DNA of 64,000 nucleotides, taken from the NCBI RefSeq assembly GCF_001957135.1, contig NZ_MPHK01000012.1:62001-126000 (forward strand), written 5' to 3'. Below, piece after piece: positions 11,548 to 17,894 of this stretch. A model generated the notes under the pieces. That model was not told the origin of the DNA. It searched no databases and saw only the letters and a program-made list of their open reading frames with translations. The DNA comes from Shewanella sp. UCD-KL21. GTDB taxonomy: Bacteria > Pseudomonadota > Gammaproteobacteria > Enterobacterales > Shewanellaceae. Position numbers and translations under genes: made by a program. How positions within the stretch are numbered: position 1 is the first letter of the stretch; every line of letters begins with the position of its first letter.

Positions 11548-14163
11548 ATGATGACTGTCAATAACACCGAACAACTTGACCTACTAATAGAGCGAGTCGC
11601 CAAAGCGCAAAAAGAATTTGCCAATTTCAGCCAAGCACAAGTCGACAAAATATTCAGAGCAGCAGCTCTTGCCGCCACAGATGCTCGTATTAAACTTGCT
11701 AAAATGGCAGCTACTGAAACCAACATGGGGTTATTAGAAGACAAAGTCATTAAAAATCACTTTGCATCTGAATATATATACAACAAATACAAAGACGATA
11801 AAACCTGCGGTATTATCGCTGAAGACATCACCTTTGGCACCATCACCATTGCCGAACCTGTGGGGATAATATGCGGCATAGTGCCCACAACCAACCCAAC
11901 CTCAACGGCCATTTTCAAAGCGCTCATTAGCCTTAAAACCCGTAACGGTATTATATTCTCGCCACATCCAAGAGCTAAGCAATCCACCACGACTGCAGCA
12001 CGCATCGTTTTAGATGCCGCTGTTGCCGCTGGTGCACCAAAAGACATTATCGGTTGGATTGACGAGCCTTCAGTGGCGCTGTCTAACCAACTTATGACTC
12101 ACGGTAACATTAACCTTATCCTCGCAACCGGCGGCCCCGGTATGGTTAAAGCTGCATACTCATCGGGTACACCAGCCATTGGGGTTGGCGCGGGTAATAC
12201 CCCAATCGTGATTGATGAAACCGCTGATATTAAACGCGCAGTAAGCTCAATACTGATGTCAAAAACCTTCGATTACGGCGTCGTGTGCGCCTCAGAGCAA
12301 GCCGTCATCGTAGTAGACAGTATTTATGAGCAAGTTAAACAACGCTTTGAAACCCATGGCGGCTACCTTTTATCAGTTAAAGAAACTGCTGCCATGCAAG
12401 AGGTTATTCTTAAAAATGGCGGGTTAAATGCTGACATCGTTGGTCAAAGTGCCCCAACCATTGCCAACATGGCAGGAATTGATGTCCCAAGCTGGACTAA
12501 GGTATTAATTGGTGAGGTGACTGACATCAATGAAGCTGAAGCCTTTGCCCATGAAAAGTTATCACCACTTTTAGGTATGTACCGCGCCACTGATTTTAAT
12601 GATGCCATGGACAAAGCTGAAGCATTAGTTACCTTAGGCGGCATTGGTCATACCTCGGGGTTATACACTGACCAAGATGGCCAAGTCGAAAGAGTTAAAG
12701 CCTTTGGCTTTAGGATGAAAACTGCGCGGATATTAATAAACACTCCAGCATCACAAGGTGGTATTGGCGATCTATATAACTTTAAATTAGCGCCATCACT
12801 GACATTGGGCTGTGGCTCATGGGGCGGCAACTCAATATCTGAAAACGTTGGCCCAAGTCATTTAATCAATAAGAAAACCGTCGCTAAAAGGGCTGAAAAT
12901 ATGTTGTGGCACAAACTTCCCTCTTCAATTTATTTCCGCCGCGGCAGTTTACCCATTGCATTAGAAGAGCTAGCAACTAAAAAACGCGCCTTAATCGTCA
13001 CCGACAAATTTTTATTTAATGATGGCTACTGCGACGAAACCATTAAAATATTAAAAGCTCAAGGGCTTGAAACAGAAGTATTTTATGAAGTTGAAGCCGA
13101 CCCAACCTTAGCCATTGTTAAACAAGGCGCTAAAGTCGCCCAAAGCTTTAAGCCTGATGTCATCATTGCATTAGGCGGTGGCTCGCCTATGGATGCGGCG
13201 AAAATAATTTGGGTATTGTATGAACATCCTGAGGTTGACTTTGCTGACTTAGCTTTGAGTTTTATGGATATACGCAAACGTATTTATAAGTTCCCTAAAT
13301 TAGGGGTTAAAGCGCAAATGGTAGCAATACCGACCACCTCAGGCACAGGCTCAGAAGTTACCCCGTTTGCCGTGGTTACCGATGAAGTGAGCGGCATGAA
13401 ATACCCTATTGCGGATTATCAACTCACTCCTAACATGGCAATTGTCGACCCCAATTTAGTAATGGATATGCCAAAGTCATTAACCGCTTTTGGTGGCATT
13501 GACGCTGTAACTCACGCATTAGAAGCTTATGTTAGCGTGATGGCAAACGAATTTAGTGATGGTCAGGCCTTACAAGCACTGGAATTATTATGTGAGCATT
13601 TACCAGCAGCTTATGAACTGGGTGCTAAAGCCCCAATAGCCAGAGAAAAAGTCCATAACGGCGCCACTATCGCCGGTATTGCCTTTGCGAATGCTTTTTT
13701 AGGCATTTGCCACTCAATGGCCCATAAGCTCGGCGCTGAGTTTCATTTAGCCCATGGGTTAGCAAACGCATTGTTAATTAGTAATGTAATTCGCTTTAAC
13801 GCCACCGATATGCCGACCAAGCAAGCCTCTTTTAGTCAGTACGACCGCCCAAAAGCCTTATGTCGTTATGCAAAGATTGCTGAAACCCTAAAGCTTGAAG
13901 GTATTGACTCAAATACCACGGATAAAGACAAGGTAGCATTGCTAATAAGTAAAATTGAACAGCTAAAAACCGCAGTTGGTATTCCTGCCTCTATTCAAGA
14001 AGCTGGTGTTAATGAAGCCGATTTCTTAGCAAAATTGGATGAATTAGCCGAGCACGCTTTTGACGACCAATGTACTGGTGCCAATCCGCGCTTCCCGCTC
14101 ATTAGTGAGTTAAAGCAGATATTATTAGATAGCTTTTATGGTAAGGCTTATCAAGATAACTAA
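11548..14163 (+). CDS. adhE: Bifunctional acetaldehyde-CoA/alcohol dehydrogenase AdhE
   Basis: The fermentative enzyme that reduces acetyl-CoA to acetaldehyde and then ethanol, regenerating 2 NAD+. It has 871 residues, normal for the fused protein, which forms spirosomes in E. coli. The N-terminal aldehyde dehydrogenase half (about 1-440) contains the catalytic Cys in FDYGVVCASEQAV and ATGGPGMVKAAYSSG. The C-terminal iron-dependent alcohol dehydrogenase half (about 450-865) has GGGSPMDAAK, IPTTSGTGSEVTPF and the metal-site histidines in CHSMAHKLGAEFHLAHGLANA. ATG codons occur at 11548 and 11551; either could start. It is monocistronic, with its own terminator. Confidence 0.97.
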   Translation: MMTVNNTEQLDLLIERVAKAQKEFANFSQAQVDKIFRAAALAATDARIKLAKMAATETNMGLLEDKVIKNHFASEYIYNKYKDDKTCGIIAEDITFGTITIAEPVGIICGIVPTTNPTSTAIFKALISLKTRNGIIFSPHPRAKQSTTTAARIVLDAAVAAGAPKDIIGWIDEPSVALSNQLMTHGNINLILATGGPGMVKAAYSSGTPAIGVGAGNTPIVIDETADIKRAVSSILMSKTFDYGVVCASEQAVIVVDSIYEQVKQRFETHGGYLLSVKETAAMQEVILKNGGLNADIVGQSAPTIANMAGIDVPSWTKVLIGEVTDINEAEAFAHEKLSPLLGMYRATDFNDAMDKAEALVTLGGIGHTSGLYTDQDGQVERVKAFGFRMKTARILINTPASQGGIGDLYNFKLAPSLTLGCGSWGGNSISENVGPSHLINKKTVAKRAENMLWHKLPSSIYFRRGSLPIALEELATKKRALIVTDKFLFNDGYCDETIKILKAQGLETEVFYEVEADPTLAIVKQGAKVAQSFKPDVIIALGGGSPMDAAKIIWVLYEHPEVDFADLALSFMDIRKRIYKFPKLGVKAQMVAIPTTSGTGSEVTPFAVVTDEVSGMKYPIADYQLTPNMAIVDPNLVMDMPKSLTAFGGIDAVTHALEAYVSVMANEFSDGQALQALELLCEHLPAAYELGAKAPIAREKVHNGATIAGIAFANAFLGICHSMAHKLGAEFHLAHGLANALLISNVIRFNATDMPTKQASFSQYDRPKALCRYAKIAETLKLEGIDSNTTDKDKVALLISKIEQLKTAVGIPASIQEAGVNEADFLAKLDELAEHAFDDQCTGANPRFPLISELKQILLDSFYGKAYQDN

Positions 14164-14173
14164 TTGCTATTTT

Positions 14174-14208
14174 CTACTTACTAGTTGCTACTTGCTACTT
14201 GCTAGTTT
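14174..14208. repeat. Five degenerate 7-bp repeats after adhE
   Basis: Successive units CTACTTA, CTAGTTG, CTACTTG, CTACTTG and CTAGTTT, starting 10 bp after the adhE stop. See also the 7-bp array at 44591-44667. Confidence 0.75.
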
Positions 14209-14282
14209 TCGGCACTAGCTCTGGTACCAGTCTACACAAGCTAGCGTTATAAAAAACTGGCTTGAACAATAGCGATTAATTA

Positions 14283-14334
14283 ACCGCTGATACAATATTG
14301 ATTATTATCAAATGTATCAGCGGTATTTTTATTT
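14283..14334 (+). terminator. Rho-independent terminator after adhE
   Basis: A perfect 12-bp stem (ACCGCTGATACA at 14283-14294 with TGTATCAGCGGT at 14313-14324) followed by ATTTTTATTT. The rest of 14164-14531 shows no other gene or site that I can support. Confidence 0.85.
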
Positions 14335-14531
14335 AATAATTTACTGTTTACCTTTACTTTATTAGTGTCAGTGAGCCATCCAAATGCACATCACGTTGTG
14401 GATATGCTGCCTAAGGTAATTGGCTGTTGTGCAGCAGTAAACACTGTCAATTTTAGCAATTGTTCAACTTGTACTAAGTCCATTATTACCCCTTTTTATC
14501 CTGACTCCCCCTAACTACCTCGCTTGAATTA

Positions 14532-14966
14532 TCAGCCTAAATACACTGCTGACGGATCCACTAAAAACCGTGTTCCTAATGCCTCACGACCAAATAGCAT
14601 TAAATAACTCATGTCTGAGCGATCGGTAAGAGTAATCTCAATCGACCACTTTTGTTGCCCAAGGACTACTGGCGTTTTAATCACGTAACGTTGCTCCACA
14701 GTGCCATTAGATGACTTAATTTTACGGATATCACTAATAGGAGCATGGCAGCTTTTTACAGTATCAACATTATGTGAATCTGGGTGAATATCAAACGAGA
14801 CACAATGCTCGCCATCTATCAGCACCTTTTTAATATTATCTACATGTAAAGACGAGGTTTTAGCCCCAGTGTCTACGCGAACTTGTAACTCGGTAATACC
14901 TAATTTAGGCAGCGCGATATACTCTAAGTTGCCAATAATCGTTTTATTTTTCATATCGAAACTCAT
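14532..14966 (-). CDS. rimB: RimB-type retropepsin-like aspartic protease
   Basis: A 144-residue protein of the family often mislabelled ATP-dependent zinc protease. The sequence shows neither an ATPase nor a zinc motif. It has the aspartic-protease signature VRVDTGAKTSSL (residues 27-38) and a later MLFGREAL turn, like a single retropepsin monomer. In Pseudomonas the homologue RimB is encoded with RimK and affects its modification of ribosomal protein S6. Here it is the last gene of a three-gene operon, and its ATG overlaps the stop of the preceding gene (TAATG). Confidence 0.87.
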   Translation of the reverse strand: MSFDMKNKTIIGNLEYIALPKLGITELQVRVDTGAKTSSLHVDNIKKVLIDGEHCVSFDIHPDSHNVDTVKSCHAPISDIRKIKSSNGTVEQRYVIKTPVVLGQQKWSIEITLTDRSDMSYLMLFGREALGTRFLVDPSAVYLG

Positions 14967-15988
14967 TAATTTACAGTATCTGGTAATAGTTGTTCTTGAA
15001 CATTTTCAATGTGTTCAGCAATTTTTTCATCATTTTCGCTAAAGTAAGCAATATGAAACATGGCTTCACCTTCTTGCACTAACGGTATATTTTGTTTACC
15101 GATTAATATGCCAGAGCGTGATGCGATCACCGAGTCAATCACTTCGCCATAGGGACTACCAATTTCAGCCAAAACTTGCCCTTTAGTAATTTGATCACCT
15201 AAATTGGCAATGTTATGTACAATGCCACTGGCATTGGCACGTACCCACTGACTGCCATTAGCGATAAATGGGGCGCGTTTTTTCTTTGCTTTTGATGATG
15301 ATTTTCTAATCATGCCTAAGTGTTGCAATACATTTAAAATGCCTTTCATGCCGGCGCGTATCGAAAACTCATCAAACCTTAATGCTTCACCTGCTTCATA
15401 CAAGAGGATTTTGGTTTGATTCTTAACTGCTGACTCCCTTAAGGAACCATCCACTAAGTTTGAATTTAAAATCACTGGCACCCCAAACACCTCTGCAAGT
15501 AATTTGGTTTCCTCATCGGCCATATCCGCTCTAATTTGCGGTAAATTAGAGCGGTGTATCGCGCCAGTATGTAAATCTATGCCGTAATCACAATGTCTAA
15601 CGATTTCATTAAGAAAGATATGCGCCACCCGTCCAGCTAATGAACCTTTCGCAGAGCCAGGAAAACAGCGATTTAAATCCCGTCTATCTGGCATATAGCG
15701 GCTTTGATTCACCACCCCATACACATTGACCATAGGTACTGCTATGAGGGTTCCTGAAGTAATCTTAAATTTATTTTGTTTAATTAGCCTTCGTATAATT
15801 TCAATGCCATTTAGCTCATCGCCATGTACCGCCGCGCTGATAAATATTGTCGGCCCCGGCTTTTTTGCACGGATGATATGTACCGGTAAAGACACATCTG
15901 CGTCGGTATATAATTTTGCTACTGGCAGCTCAATTTTACGTTGCTCACCCGCTAAAATGTCAAAATCACCAATGGTTAGCTTATTCAT
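14966..15988 (-). CDS. Succinylglutamate desuccinylase/aspartoacylase-family (M14-like) zinc enzyme
   Basis: About 340 residues of the AstE/ASPA branch of M14 zinc carboxypeptidases. The zinc site is visible as HGDELNG (His and Glu) and IDLHTG (second His). NRCFPG is the substrate Asn-Arg element, and LLYEAGEALRFDE holds the likely catalytic Glu. The C-terminal part (about 240-340) is a beta-rich domain with SRSGILIG. I prefer the ATG at 15988 over the TTG at 16000, because GGGACG lies upstream and MNKLTIGDF looks like a family start. It sits between rimK and rimB with almost no spacing. Its substrate may be a glutamylated product of RimK; that is inference. Confidence 0.87.
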   Translation of the reverse strand: MNKLTIGDFDILAGEQRKIELPVAKLYTDADVSLPVHIIRAKKPGPTIFISAAVHGDELNGIEIIRRLIKQNKFKITSGTLIAVPMVNVYGVVNQSRYMPDRRDLNRCFPGSAKGSLAGRVAHIFLNEIVRHCDYGIDLHTGAIHRSNLPQIRADMADEETKLLAEVFGVPVILNSNLVDGSLRESAVKNQTKILLYEAGEALRFDEFSIRAGMKGILNVLQHLGMIRKSSSKAKKKRAPFIANGSQWVRANASGIVHNIANLGDQITKGQVLAEIGSPYGEVIDSVIASRSGILIGKQNIPLVQEGEAMFHIAYFSENDEKIAEHIENVQEQLLPDTVN

Positions 15989-16000
15989 AATGCGTCCCAA

Positions 16001-16906
16001 TCAGCCTTTACCGCGAGTTTTGTTTTTATGGGGCTTGGCATTCTTTTCTAAAAATTGAAATACCATTGACGCGACATCTTTTCCGGTAGCCGTTTCAATA
16101 CCTTCAAGCCCTGGCGATGAATTAACTTCCATCACCATAGGGCCATTTTGTGAGCGCAGTAAATCAACGCCGCATAAGTTTAGCCCCATAATTTTGGCTG
16201 CATTAATTGCTGTTTCACGCTCTTCTTTAGATAGTTTAACCACTACAGCAGAGCCGCCACGGTGCAAGTTAGAACGAAACTCACCTTCAGCCCCTTGGCG
16301 CTTCATTGCCGCAACAACCTTTCCGCCAACCACTAAACAGCGAATATCGGCGCCGCCAGCTTCTTTAACAAATTCTTGTACCAAAATATTGGCTTTTAAG
16401 CCCATAAAGGCCTCGATAATGGCTTCAGCAGCTTTAGCGGTATCAGCTAACACCACTCCGATACCTTGGGTGCCTTCTAGTAGCTTAATGACAACAGGCG
16501 CACCACCGACGTTTTTTATCAAATCTTTAATATTGTCAGGCTTATTAGCAAAACCGGTACGTGGCAAGCCAATGCCTTTACGTGACAATAATTGCAAAGA
16601 GCGTAATTTATCGCGTGAGCGACTAATGGCGACAGATTCGTTAATATTAAAGGTGCCCATCATTTCAAATTGTCGCGCCACTGCGGTACCGTAAAATGTC
16701 ACCGATGCACCAATGCGCGGGATCACAGCATCATACATCGGAAGCTCTTTACCATCGTAGCGCAAGGTTGGCTTACTGCTGGTAATATCCATGTAGCAAT
16801 GTAATGTATCAATAATATCCACTGTGTGGCCCATAGCTTCACCCGCCTCTTTTAAGCGGCGAGTTGAATATAACTTTGGGTTTCTTGATAGAATCGCAAT
16901 TCTCAT
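16001..16906 (-). CDS. rimK: RimK-type ATP-grasp L-glutamate ligase
   Basis: RimK adds glutamates to the C-terminus of ribosomal protein S6 (RpsF) and can make poly-alpha-glutamate. It has 301 residues, matching E. coli RimK (300): [18 protein letters not shown] start, [11 protein letters not shown], the ATP-grasp Lys in [15 protein letters not shown], and the metal-binding end [14 protein letters not shown]. First gene of the operon rimK / M14-like enzyme / rimB, with a 12-bp gap to the second gene (taking its ATG start). Divergent from the LysR-type gene at 17046, which may regulate it. Confidence 0.95.
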
Positions 16907-17045
16907 AATATGTCCTGATTATGTTTCTTTTATTGTACAAAGGTGCTGTAATTCGCTGAGTGTATGAGTATCTATCTCATAAATATAACGTTATTTTTTG
17001 ATGTGTTTAATCAAAAATTTTAATCACAGCTTTTAAAGGATGTTG

Positions 17046-17894
17046 ATGAAAGTAGAATTATTAAAAACATTTTTAGAGGTTAGCCGTACGCTACATTTTA
17101 GAGTCGCTGCCGAAAATTTGTTTATCACCCAGTCTGCTGTCAGTGCCAGAATCAAGCTTTTAGAAGAGGATTTAGGGGTGTTACTGTTTGATCGCAGTAA
17201 GAAACACCTCAAATTAACCCCTGAGGGTAACCGCTTAATTAAGCATGCCAATGAGCTGTTATTGATGTGGCAAAAGGCCAAGCAAGATGTGGGTATTGCT
17301 GAGGGTGATAACCATCAACTGGCCATCGGTTCTATCATGTCTATATGGGATATCGTCCTTCAAGGCTGGCTAACCAAAATTCACCTAAATATTGAAGGTA
17401 TGAGCCTATTAACCAATACTCTTTCACCGGTTGAATTAAGAAAAAGCTTGTTAAGTCGCGTTATTGATGTGGCCTTTTTATTCGAGCCGCCTTATGTAGA
17501 AGACCTAGTAATAACTAAGGTTGCGACTGTGCCCTTATACCTTGTTAGCACTGAATCAAATAGCGCCAAACAAAACTCGACATTAGAAAACTACATTATG
17601 GTGGACTATGGTGAGTCGATTAACAGTCAATATCGACGCAGTTTTCAAGACTCACCGCCAGCAAAACACTCGATGAACCAACCAAGGATTGCTCTTAATT
17701 TTTTATTGGATGTCGGTGGCTGCGCCTACCTGCCAAGACAAATGGCGTTTGAATATATTGAAAGCAATAGACTTTTTATCGTAGACGATGCGCCGGTTTT
17801 TTCTCGAGAAATCTATGCAGTGTATTTAGAAAAAGGTCATAAAGTGGATATCATTGAACAAACGCTGCAGTTATTTCCCTATTTAAAAACATAA
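17046..17894 (+). CDS. LysR-type regulator, HdfR-like
   Basis: The N-terminal winged HTH (about residues 1-60: ELLKTFLEVSRTLHFRVAAENLFITQSAVSARIKLLEEDLGVLLFDR) is very close to E. coli HdfR, and an effector-binding domain follows. HdfR represses flhDC in E. coli. The target here is unknown, and divergence from rimK (139 bp) makes that operon a candidate. I chose the ATG at 17046 because AAAGGA sits at proper spacing; an ATG at 17040 overlaps that site. LysR proteins usually bind T-N11-A sites in the divergent region. Confidence 0.88.
   Translation: MKVELLKTFLEVSRTLHFRVAAENLFITQSAVSARIKLLEEDLGVLLFDRSKKHLKLTPEGNRLIKHANELLLMWQKAKQDVGIAEGDNHQLAIGSIMSIWDIVLQGWLTKIHLNIEGMSLLTNTLSPVELRKSLLSRVIDVAFLFEPPYVEDLVITKVATVPLYLVSTESNSAKQNSTLENYIMVDYGESINSQYRRSFQDSPPAKHSMNQPRIALNFLLDVGGCAYLPRQMAFEYIESNRLFIVDDAPVFSREIYAVYLEKGHKVDIIEQTLQLFPYLKT

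Follow-up and report, generated by a model that had tools for sequence, protein, structure and literature searches.

In Shewanella sp. UCD-KL21, a 64,000 nt stretch of contig NZ_MPHK01000012.1 (the window) carries a compact operon in which a gene for a zinc hydrolase of the M14 fold lies between rimK, encoding an alpha-L-glutamate ligase, and rimB, encoding a retropepsin-like protease. Comparison across genomes shows that the M14 gene goes with the RimK ligase as a fixed partner, not as a chance neighbour. The reading we favour, to which we give about an even chance, is that this partner belongs to the AstE/DoeB/CphZ branch of zinc amidohydrolases and finishes glutamyl chains after RimB has acted on them.

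Profiles for RimK_N, M14 and PF05618 were run against 274 genomes sampled evenly from the class. M14 genes were counted as rim-type at 350 bits or above, a threshold chosen after the list was seen, and as adjacent when they shared a strand with RimK and lay no more than 3 kb from it. The class counts leave out four M14 rows that were weak or fragmentary, RimK_N matches above about 4e-17 and five RloC rows under cut-off. There were 81 rim-type M14 genes in 79 genomes, and all 79 carry RimK, compared with 123 of the 274 overall (hypergeometric P ~3e-37, a value that ignores shared ancestry). Adjacency to RimK was seen for 73 of the 81 genes. The threshold excludes the M14 gene of genome G029 (343 bits), which is of a transporter-linked type described below and whose genome has RimK, as well as three fragmentary M14 genes beside RimK (G024, G027 and G042). 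At 340 bits, RimK is found in 80 of 81 M14 genomes and is missing from G216 (347 bits, transporter-linked). Counted from the ligase, 131 strong RimK_N matches fall in 123 genomes, of which 76 have an adjacent M14 by the criterion above. The arrangements among these are rimB-rimK-M14 (at least 54), rimK-M14 (13), rimK-M14-rimB (at least 8) and M14-rimB-rimK (at least 1), the figures that include rimB being lower bounds.

The same pattern holds in the genus, where rim-type M14 occurs in 37 of 60 genomes, each of them with RimK; the 11 genomes that lack RimK have no rim-type M14. G330, a genus genome lacking RimK, carries M14 of the transporter-linked type. A tie to RimB rather than RimK was rejected in the genus, as four of the 37 M14 genomes have RimK and no PF05618 protein; M14 therefore follows the ligase, not the protease. 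Among related loci found by M14 similarity alone, the order rimK-M14-rimB was seen in 48 of 61 (47, and one near a contig end); in two of the 61 (L059 and L061) M14 is present and a RimK relative was not found in the stretch compared. The trio also appears in records from an alphaproteobacterium (Phaeobacter), a cyanobacterium (Acaryochloris) and Salinivibrio, and relatives of the M14 gene were found in 40 plasmid records. Because gene order is conserved in the 48 loci and 73 of the 81 rim-type genes of the class adjoin RimK, a chance grouping is excluded. The suggestion in an earlier note on this DNA that the three genes act as a functional unit is supported, and the middle gene closely tracks RimK.

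The tight operon and its divergent LysR gene were confirmed where the earlier note had placed them, with all three operon genes on the minus strand. The features of the locus are:

16001–16906, minus strand: rimK, 301 aa alpha-L-glutamate ligase of the ATP-grasp type, the writer (NF007764, PF18030, PF08443)
14966–15988 (from ATG), minus strand: M14-fold zinc amidohydrolase of the AstE/DoeB/CphZ type (PF24827), proposed finisher of glutamyl chains
14532–14966, minus strand: rimB, 144 aa retropepsin-like aspartic endopeptidase (PF05618)
14351–14471, minus strand: remnant of mscS, a gene for an MscS-type mechanosensitive channel (tblastn and blastn against locus L005)
17040–17894, plus strand: LysR-family regulator, HdfR-like (PF00126 and PF03466), divergent from rimK

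The rimK stop is 12 bp from the M14 ATG, the M14 stop and the rimB start overlap by one base (TAATG), and 133 bp lie between rimK and the LysR gene. The product of the latter belongs to the LysR family but scores 177.3 bits against the HdfR model, below its cut-off of 240. A divergent LysR relative is found upstream of rimK in 42 of 53 related loci, and it may control the set, as the earlier note proposed. A scan of the locus for promoter-like sites (5 compared with 8.7 expected) and terminators (0) was uninformative. Inverted repeats are present within 14100–14560.

RimK passes the NCBIfam S6--L-glutamate ligase model NF007764 (445.8 bits, cut-off 331), and its gene is the sole RimK_N match in the genome. 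RimB matches PF05618 with 113.1 bits (cut-off 27) and has the DTG catalytic motif, which is kept in 52 of 52 RimB matches of related loci; with the NCBIfam RimB equivalog NF052261 it scores 120.9 bits, under the cut-off of 200, this still being the top score of four RimB/RloA models. The genome holds four PF24827 matches, of which only the window M14 adjoins rimK, and five PF05618 matches across four genes. Locus L070 of the same genome (1429–2307) encodes a 292 aa protein with two tandem PF05618 matches, and similar frames occur in other genomes of the genus.

The M14 protein passes PF24827 (137.7 bits, Pfam cut-off 25). Its closest sequence models are DoeB, aspartoacylase and AstE, and all three equivalog cut-offs are missed widely; the nearest curated model, DoeB (TIGR02994), gives 101.1 bits with a cut-off of 402.7, and the succinylglutamate desuccinylase model of AstE (TIGR03242) gives 29.4 bits with a cut-off of 305.65. 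With residues numbered from N2 (add 1 for the ATG start) and catalytic roles taken over from the known family, the zinc ligands H54 and E57 (an HxxE motif) and H139 are present, together with the catalytic E197, in 70 of 70 rim-type alignment rows, a set that leans toward high-scoring relatives. They are also kept in a second clade of 14 M14 genes, here called rlo-type (see below). Eight further residues, R96, R101, R106, R145, R152, R183, N147 and Q150, are common to the rim-type (68–70 of 70) and rlo-type (14 of 14) proteins. The N-acetyl-diaminobutyrate deacetylase DoeB/EutE (6twl, 6twm) has the same zinc and catalytic residues and a close fold, but its 6twl row, in an alignment read by eye, carries other residues at 145, 147, 150, 152 and 183, and so lacks R145, R152 and R183. 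Since the rim and rlo clades share an arginine-rich site that the DoeB row partly lacks, the pocket would suit an acidic substrate. R183 we take to be the counterpart of the side-chain-carboxylate arginine of aspartoacylase. The full residue set is retained in the alphaproteobacterial and cyanobacterial copies and in two vibrio-group plasmid copies. Four haloarchaeal M14 proteins keep R96, R106, R145, R152 and R183, while positions 100–101 differ and 102, 147 and 150 do so in part.

An AlphaFold model of M14 (mean predicted local distance difference test score, pLDDT, of 78.4) matched 3cdx (Z 26.1) and DoeB (Z 25.3) best, with carboxypeptidases weaker. CphZ, the hydrolase of the cyanophycin cycle, shares the fold over most of the chain (8eip_A, Z 22.5, root-mean-square deviation 3.8, 295 residues aligned). 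The tubulin deglutamylases, or cytosolic carboxypeptidases (CCP), were proposed as a parallel in the earlier note. They too have the M14 fold and erase glutamate opposite a glutamate ligase (CCP5, 8v3o, 8v3p), and the parallel stands only at the level of the fold (8v3p_A, Z 13.0, root-mean-square deviation 3.4, 202 aligned). This match is well under the AstE-branch rows, and CCP is absent among the nine sequence matches of M14 at E 0.01.

A third clade of M14 genes, in eight loci (L115, L116, L119–L122, L208 and L221), adjoins a transporter-like gene, assigned by Pfam to the major facilitator superfamily (MFS) in L122, the one tested. Zinc ligand H139 is lost in all eight, and N105, R145 and R152 differ. 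Given the loss of H139, these proteins were rejected as the same enzyme and are likely to be inactive enzymes or binding proteins.

The rlo-type clade (about 220–280 bits, long N-terminal extensions) has a support of 100 in the Shimodaira–Hasegawa-like approximate likelihood ratio test (SH-aLRT); its 14 genes were first labelled by neighbourhood and score, and the label was then borne out by the tree. RloC is present in all 14 genomes, compared with 46 of the 274 overall (P ~2e-12, again ignoring shared ancestry), and RimK is also present in 11 of the 14. Seven loci show the collinear order rloA-rloB-rloC-M14; in another the M14 gene is divergent, and in one it lies about 7 kb off. The ATP-grasp gene of L103 and L106 passes TIGR02291, and L103 also has a membrane protein with PF14400 and PF14402 matches and a protease with a PF05618 match; in the other rlo loci, rloA and rloC were recognised by profile search and rloB by place and length. 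A strongly hydrophobic, leader-like N-terminal stretch was seen in 13 of the 14 rlo-type M14 proteins and in 0 of 70 rim-type ones. Such a leader would export the rlo-type M14 to the compartment of RloA, in the periplasmic rlo system, which is paralogous to rim. The window genome carries an rlo-type locus of its own (L067, G000:C1:222407), with an RloA-like protein, a seven-transmembrane (7TM)-type protein and RloC.

A third setting occurs in haloarchaea, where a fusion of RimK and a retropepsin lies beside a related M14 gene in three of 11 records, or four of 11 if a distant relative is included. The fusions in L227 (2446–3795), L232 (2446–3831) and L235 (2983–4305) are head to head with M14. 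Their domain order, RimK ATP-grasp then retropepsin, is the reverse of that of the bacterial RimB-RimK fusions. Pfam domains define the fusion in two cases (L227 and L232), and the others were accepted on a tblastn cover of at least 80%, with one place per record.

How M14 might act is suggested by the specificity of the known proteases. According to PMC11957791, RimK adds glutamate to ribosomal protein S6 and also makes free poly-alpha-glutamate, and the Pseudomonas RimB is a retropepsin that strips poly-glutamate from S6, needs about 5–6 contiguous glutamates and stimulates synthesis of the free polymer. RloA cuts chains of 8 or 10 glutamates and not those of 6 or fewer (PMC12239564). Because RimB and RloA need runs of about 5–8 glutamates, short stubs and oligo-glutamate should remain. 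In the proposed pathway, RimK would build alpha-linked glutamate chains on a protein C-terminus or as free poly-glutamate, RimB would cut them only where about five or more glutamates follow one another, and M14 would then take glutamate off the C-termini of the short stubs, split oligo-glutamate to free glutamate, or both. The modification would thereby become fully reversible and the glutamate would be recovered. The reaction assigned to M14 is inferred by analogy with cyanophycin, where CphZ, a close fold relative, splits the dipeptide left from degradation of the polymer (PMC12661447). The earlier note had cast M14 as a possible eraser, an idea that holds only in the modified form of a finishing enzyme. 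Activity on glutamyl chains remains the most plausible role, but an eraser does not have to be sought in M14, because RimB, the published one, already removes poly-glutamate from S6 (PMC11957791).

Several observations weigh against this reading. Of the 123 RimK genomes of the class, 47 lack an adjacent M14 and 44 any rim-type M14, so tails can be handled without it. M14 lies apart from RimK in 14 of the 37 genus genomes (for example L207 and L212), and the four with no PF05618 protein mean that RimB products cannot be its sole substrate. M14 is found in none of nine genus genomes with a RimB-RimK fusion; in the class, at least six such fusions, recognised by equal open-frame lengths, have no M14 within 3 kb, but given the haloarchaeal cases this absence is not a rule. 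Of the first four haloarchaeal M14 regions inspected, two lacked a fusion in the vicinity. M14 lies within 3 kb in only eight of 46 RloC loci, and the rlo operon of the window genome lacks an rlo-type M14. The active-site loop 88–111 is modelled at pLDDT <50. The specificity of the Pseudomonas enzyme is assumed for the window RimB, which falls short of the RimB equivalog cut-off. The best-matching curated families, DoeB and AstE, deacylate N-acyl amino acids and do not act on peptides.

In relatives, the operon extends past rimB. Of the related loci, 52 have rimB and are covered for at least 1.1 kb past it; in 28 of these a near full-length MscS-type gene begins 19–192 bp past rimB on the same strand, and two of the linked channels (L228 and L209) are assigned to PF00924 by Pfam. 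Eight further loci, from Psychromonas, have mscS 3.4–4 kb upstream of rimK. The window retains just the two termini of mscS: with the L005 MscS protein as tblastn query, residues 1–23 lie at 14471–14403 and residues 264–283 at 14410–14351, and blastn indicates an internal deletion of about 730 bp relative to L005. Taken together, the remnant and the position of mscS in relatives give a full cassette of LysR / rimK-M14-rimB-mscS, and a plasmid of Vibrio nigripulchritudo, typed as conjugative, carries all of it (L228). The earlier note had missed the mscS remnant directly after rimB. It may tie the whole cassette to osmotic conditions.

If M14 instead acted on a small metabolite co-regulated with RimK, such as an N-acyl amino acid or an unrelated dipeptide, no glutamyl chain would be involved. 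This is unlikely in our estimate, even though DoeB, aspartoacylase and AstE are the nearest sequence models, a transporter-like gene adjoins the third clade in eight loci (MFS in L122) and two haloarchaeal relatives adjoin a bile acid:sodium symporter. The equivalog cut-offs are widely missed, two M14 clades each track their own glutamate-ligase-like enzyme, and the transporter-linked clade, having lost H139 and with N105, R145 and R152 altered, says little on active enzymes. A still more doubtful view, and the one put forward in the earlier note, is that M14 itself is an S6 deglutamylase and the bacterial counterpart of tubulin CCP. It draws on the strict tracking of RimK, on the fold held in common with CCP5 and on the S6 protein of this genome, which ends ...AEETAE, i.e., with a terminal glutamate. 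Removal of S6 tails by RimB and the far greater fold distance of CCP than of DoeB or CphZ argue otherwise, as does the distribution of S6 termini. A C-terminal glutamate was found in 21 of 40 genomes with RimK and M14 (76 such genomes overall; 49 had a listed S6 place, a number that includes the window genome and eight left out), in 12 of 19 with RimK only (all those listed) and in 11 of 20 with neither strong RimK nor M14 at 340 bits or above (every fourth of 77). It is thus no commoner with RimK and M14 than without RimK; S6 was dropped as a linked substrate and is not favoured as the target of M14.

Another possibility keeps the chemistry of the glutamyl-chain reading and shifts its purpose to an osmotic buffer, in which RimK would build a poly-alpha-glutamate store, RimB and M14 would depolymerise it, MscS would handle pressure and the ribosome would be secondary; polymerised glutamate would be expected to have a lower osmotic effect. 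In the marine bacterium Photobacterium damselae, rimK rises 52-fold at 1% compared with 3% NaCl and RimK is among the authors' top 20 genes (PMC10308900), and rlo is an osmotic-stress system with an osmotic phenotype (PMC12239564). These two results, together with mscS in the cassette, point to a role in salt or pressure responses. The stimulation of free poly-glutamate synthesis by RimB (PMC11957791), the presence of mscS after rimB in 28 of 52 loci and on the Vibrio plasmid, and the missing link to the S6 terminus fit as well. We nonetheless regard a buffer of this kind as rather improbable. In 24 of the 52 loci, eight of them the Psychromonas ones, mscS is not directly past rimB, and in the window it is broken; the neighbours of the Photobacterium rimK are not named in the searched portion of PMC10308900. 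A wider proposal is held tentatively, with somewhat more credence: ligase, retropepsin and M14 would form a general reversible poly-alpha-glutamate module (cytosolic in rim, periplasmic in rlo, fused in haloarchaea), serving mainly as a cyanophycin-like store for osmotic adjustment; low salt would induce it, in marine bacteria it would be coupled to MscS, and S6 would be only one client.

The cassette looks like a horizontally acquired replacement in this genome. A more diverged M14 (370–411 bits) is present in 25 of the 60 genus genomes, in 11 of them beside rimB-rimK. A DUF2461 gene lies next to the diverged set in L205, and a fumarylacetoacetate-hydrolase-family gene further on in L211. In the window genome, an orphan rimB (L068, 1489–1917, contig C2) lies between DUF2461 and fumarylacetoacetate-hydrolase-family genes, and shares 72–78% identity with the native rimB genes of L205 and L211 and 39% with the cassette rimB. 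Because this orphan, at the apparent native site, resembles the rimB of L205 and L211, the genome has probably lost its native rimK and M14 and gained the window cassette. The identity of the window RimK (92–93%) and M14 (86–90%) to two Leucothrix copies (L007 and L062) fits horizontal transfer of the cassette.

The rim and rlo operons are already known. The Pseudomonas rimABK or rimBK operon likewise joins the RimK ligase and the retropepsin RimB (PMC4741518, PMC7343187, PMC11957791), to which the window adds the rimK-M14-rimB order with LysR; the words desuccinylase, aspartoacylase, carboxypeptidase and mechanosensitive are absent from the texts of those three papers. The rloABC operon of Pseudomonas aeruginosa also pairs a retropepsin with an ATP-grasp glutamate-ligase-like protein, and differs in its secreted retropepsin and inactive transglutaminase membrane protein (PMC12239564). 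Some of its relatives in other families add the sister M14, and the text of PMC12239564 searched does not mention desuccinylase or carboxypeptidase. In the cyanophycin cycle (CphA, CphB and CphZ; 8ein, 8eip), an amino-acid polymer is similarly finished by an AstE-fold hydrolase; the polymer is of Asp-Arg, and CphZ is 13% identical to the window M14. CphA, the synthetase of the cycle, is an ATP-grasp enzyme, and the work on CphZ, its dipeptide hydrolase, appeared in PNAS in 2023. Tubulin CCP is a distant fold by comparison, and RimB is so far the one known eraser of bacterial tails. Iyer et al. (2009) reportedly linked peptide ligases with peptidases of several folds in amidoligase neighbourhoods, and may have noted the RimK-M14 pair. 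In the literature searched, including the texts of PMC11957791, PMC10092738, PMC4741518, PMC7343187, PMC12239564, PMC10797017 and PMC10308900, M14 was not mentioned with RimK. That literature yielded no report of the M14 partner in either operon, of the haloarchaeal form or of the mscS link, the term mechanosensitive having been sought only inside a few individual texts.

Polyglutamylation by RimK is one of few protein polyglutamylations known in bacteria, and M14 is a concrete candidate for the enzyme missing from the full removal of its tails. Since short glutamate runs lie beyond the reach of the characterised retropepsins, oligo-glutamate and tail stubs should, if this is true, accumulate in cells without M14. 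A possible osmotic role becomes open to experiment through the link to mscS and the induction of rimK at low salt in one marine species.

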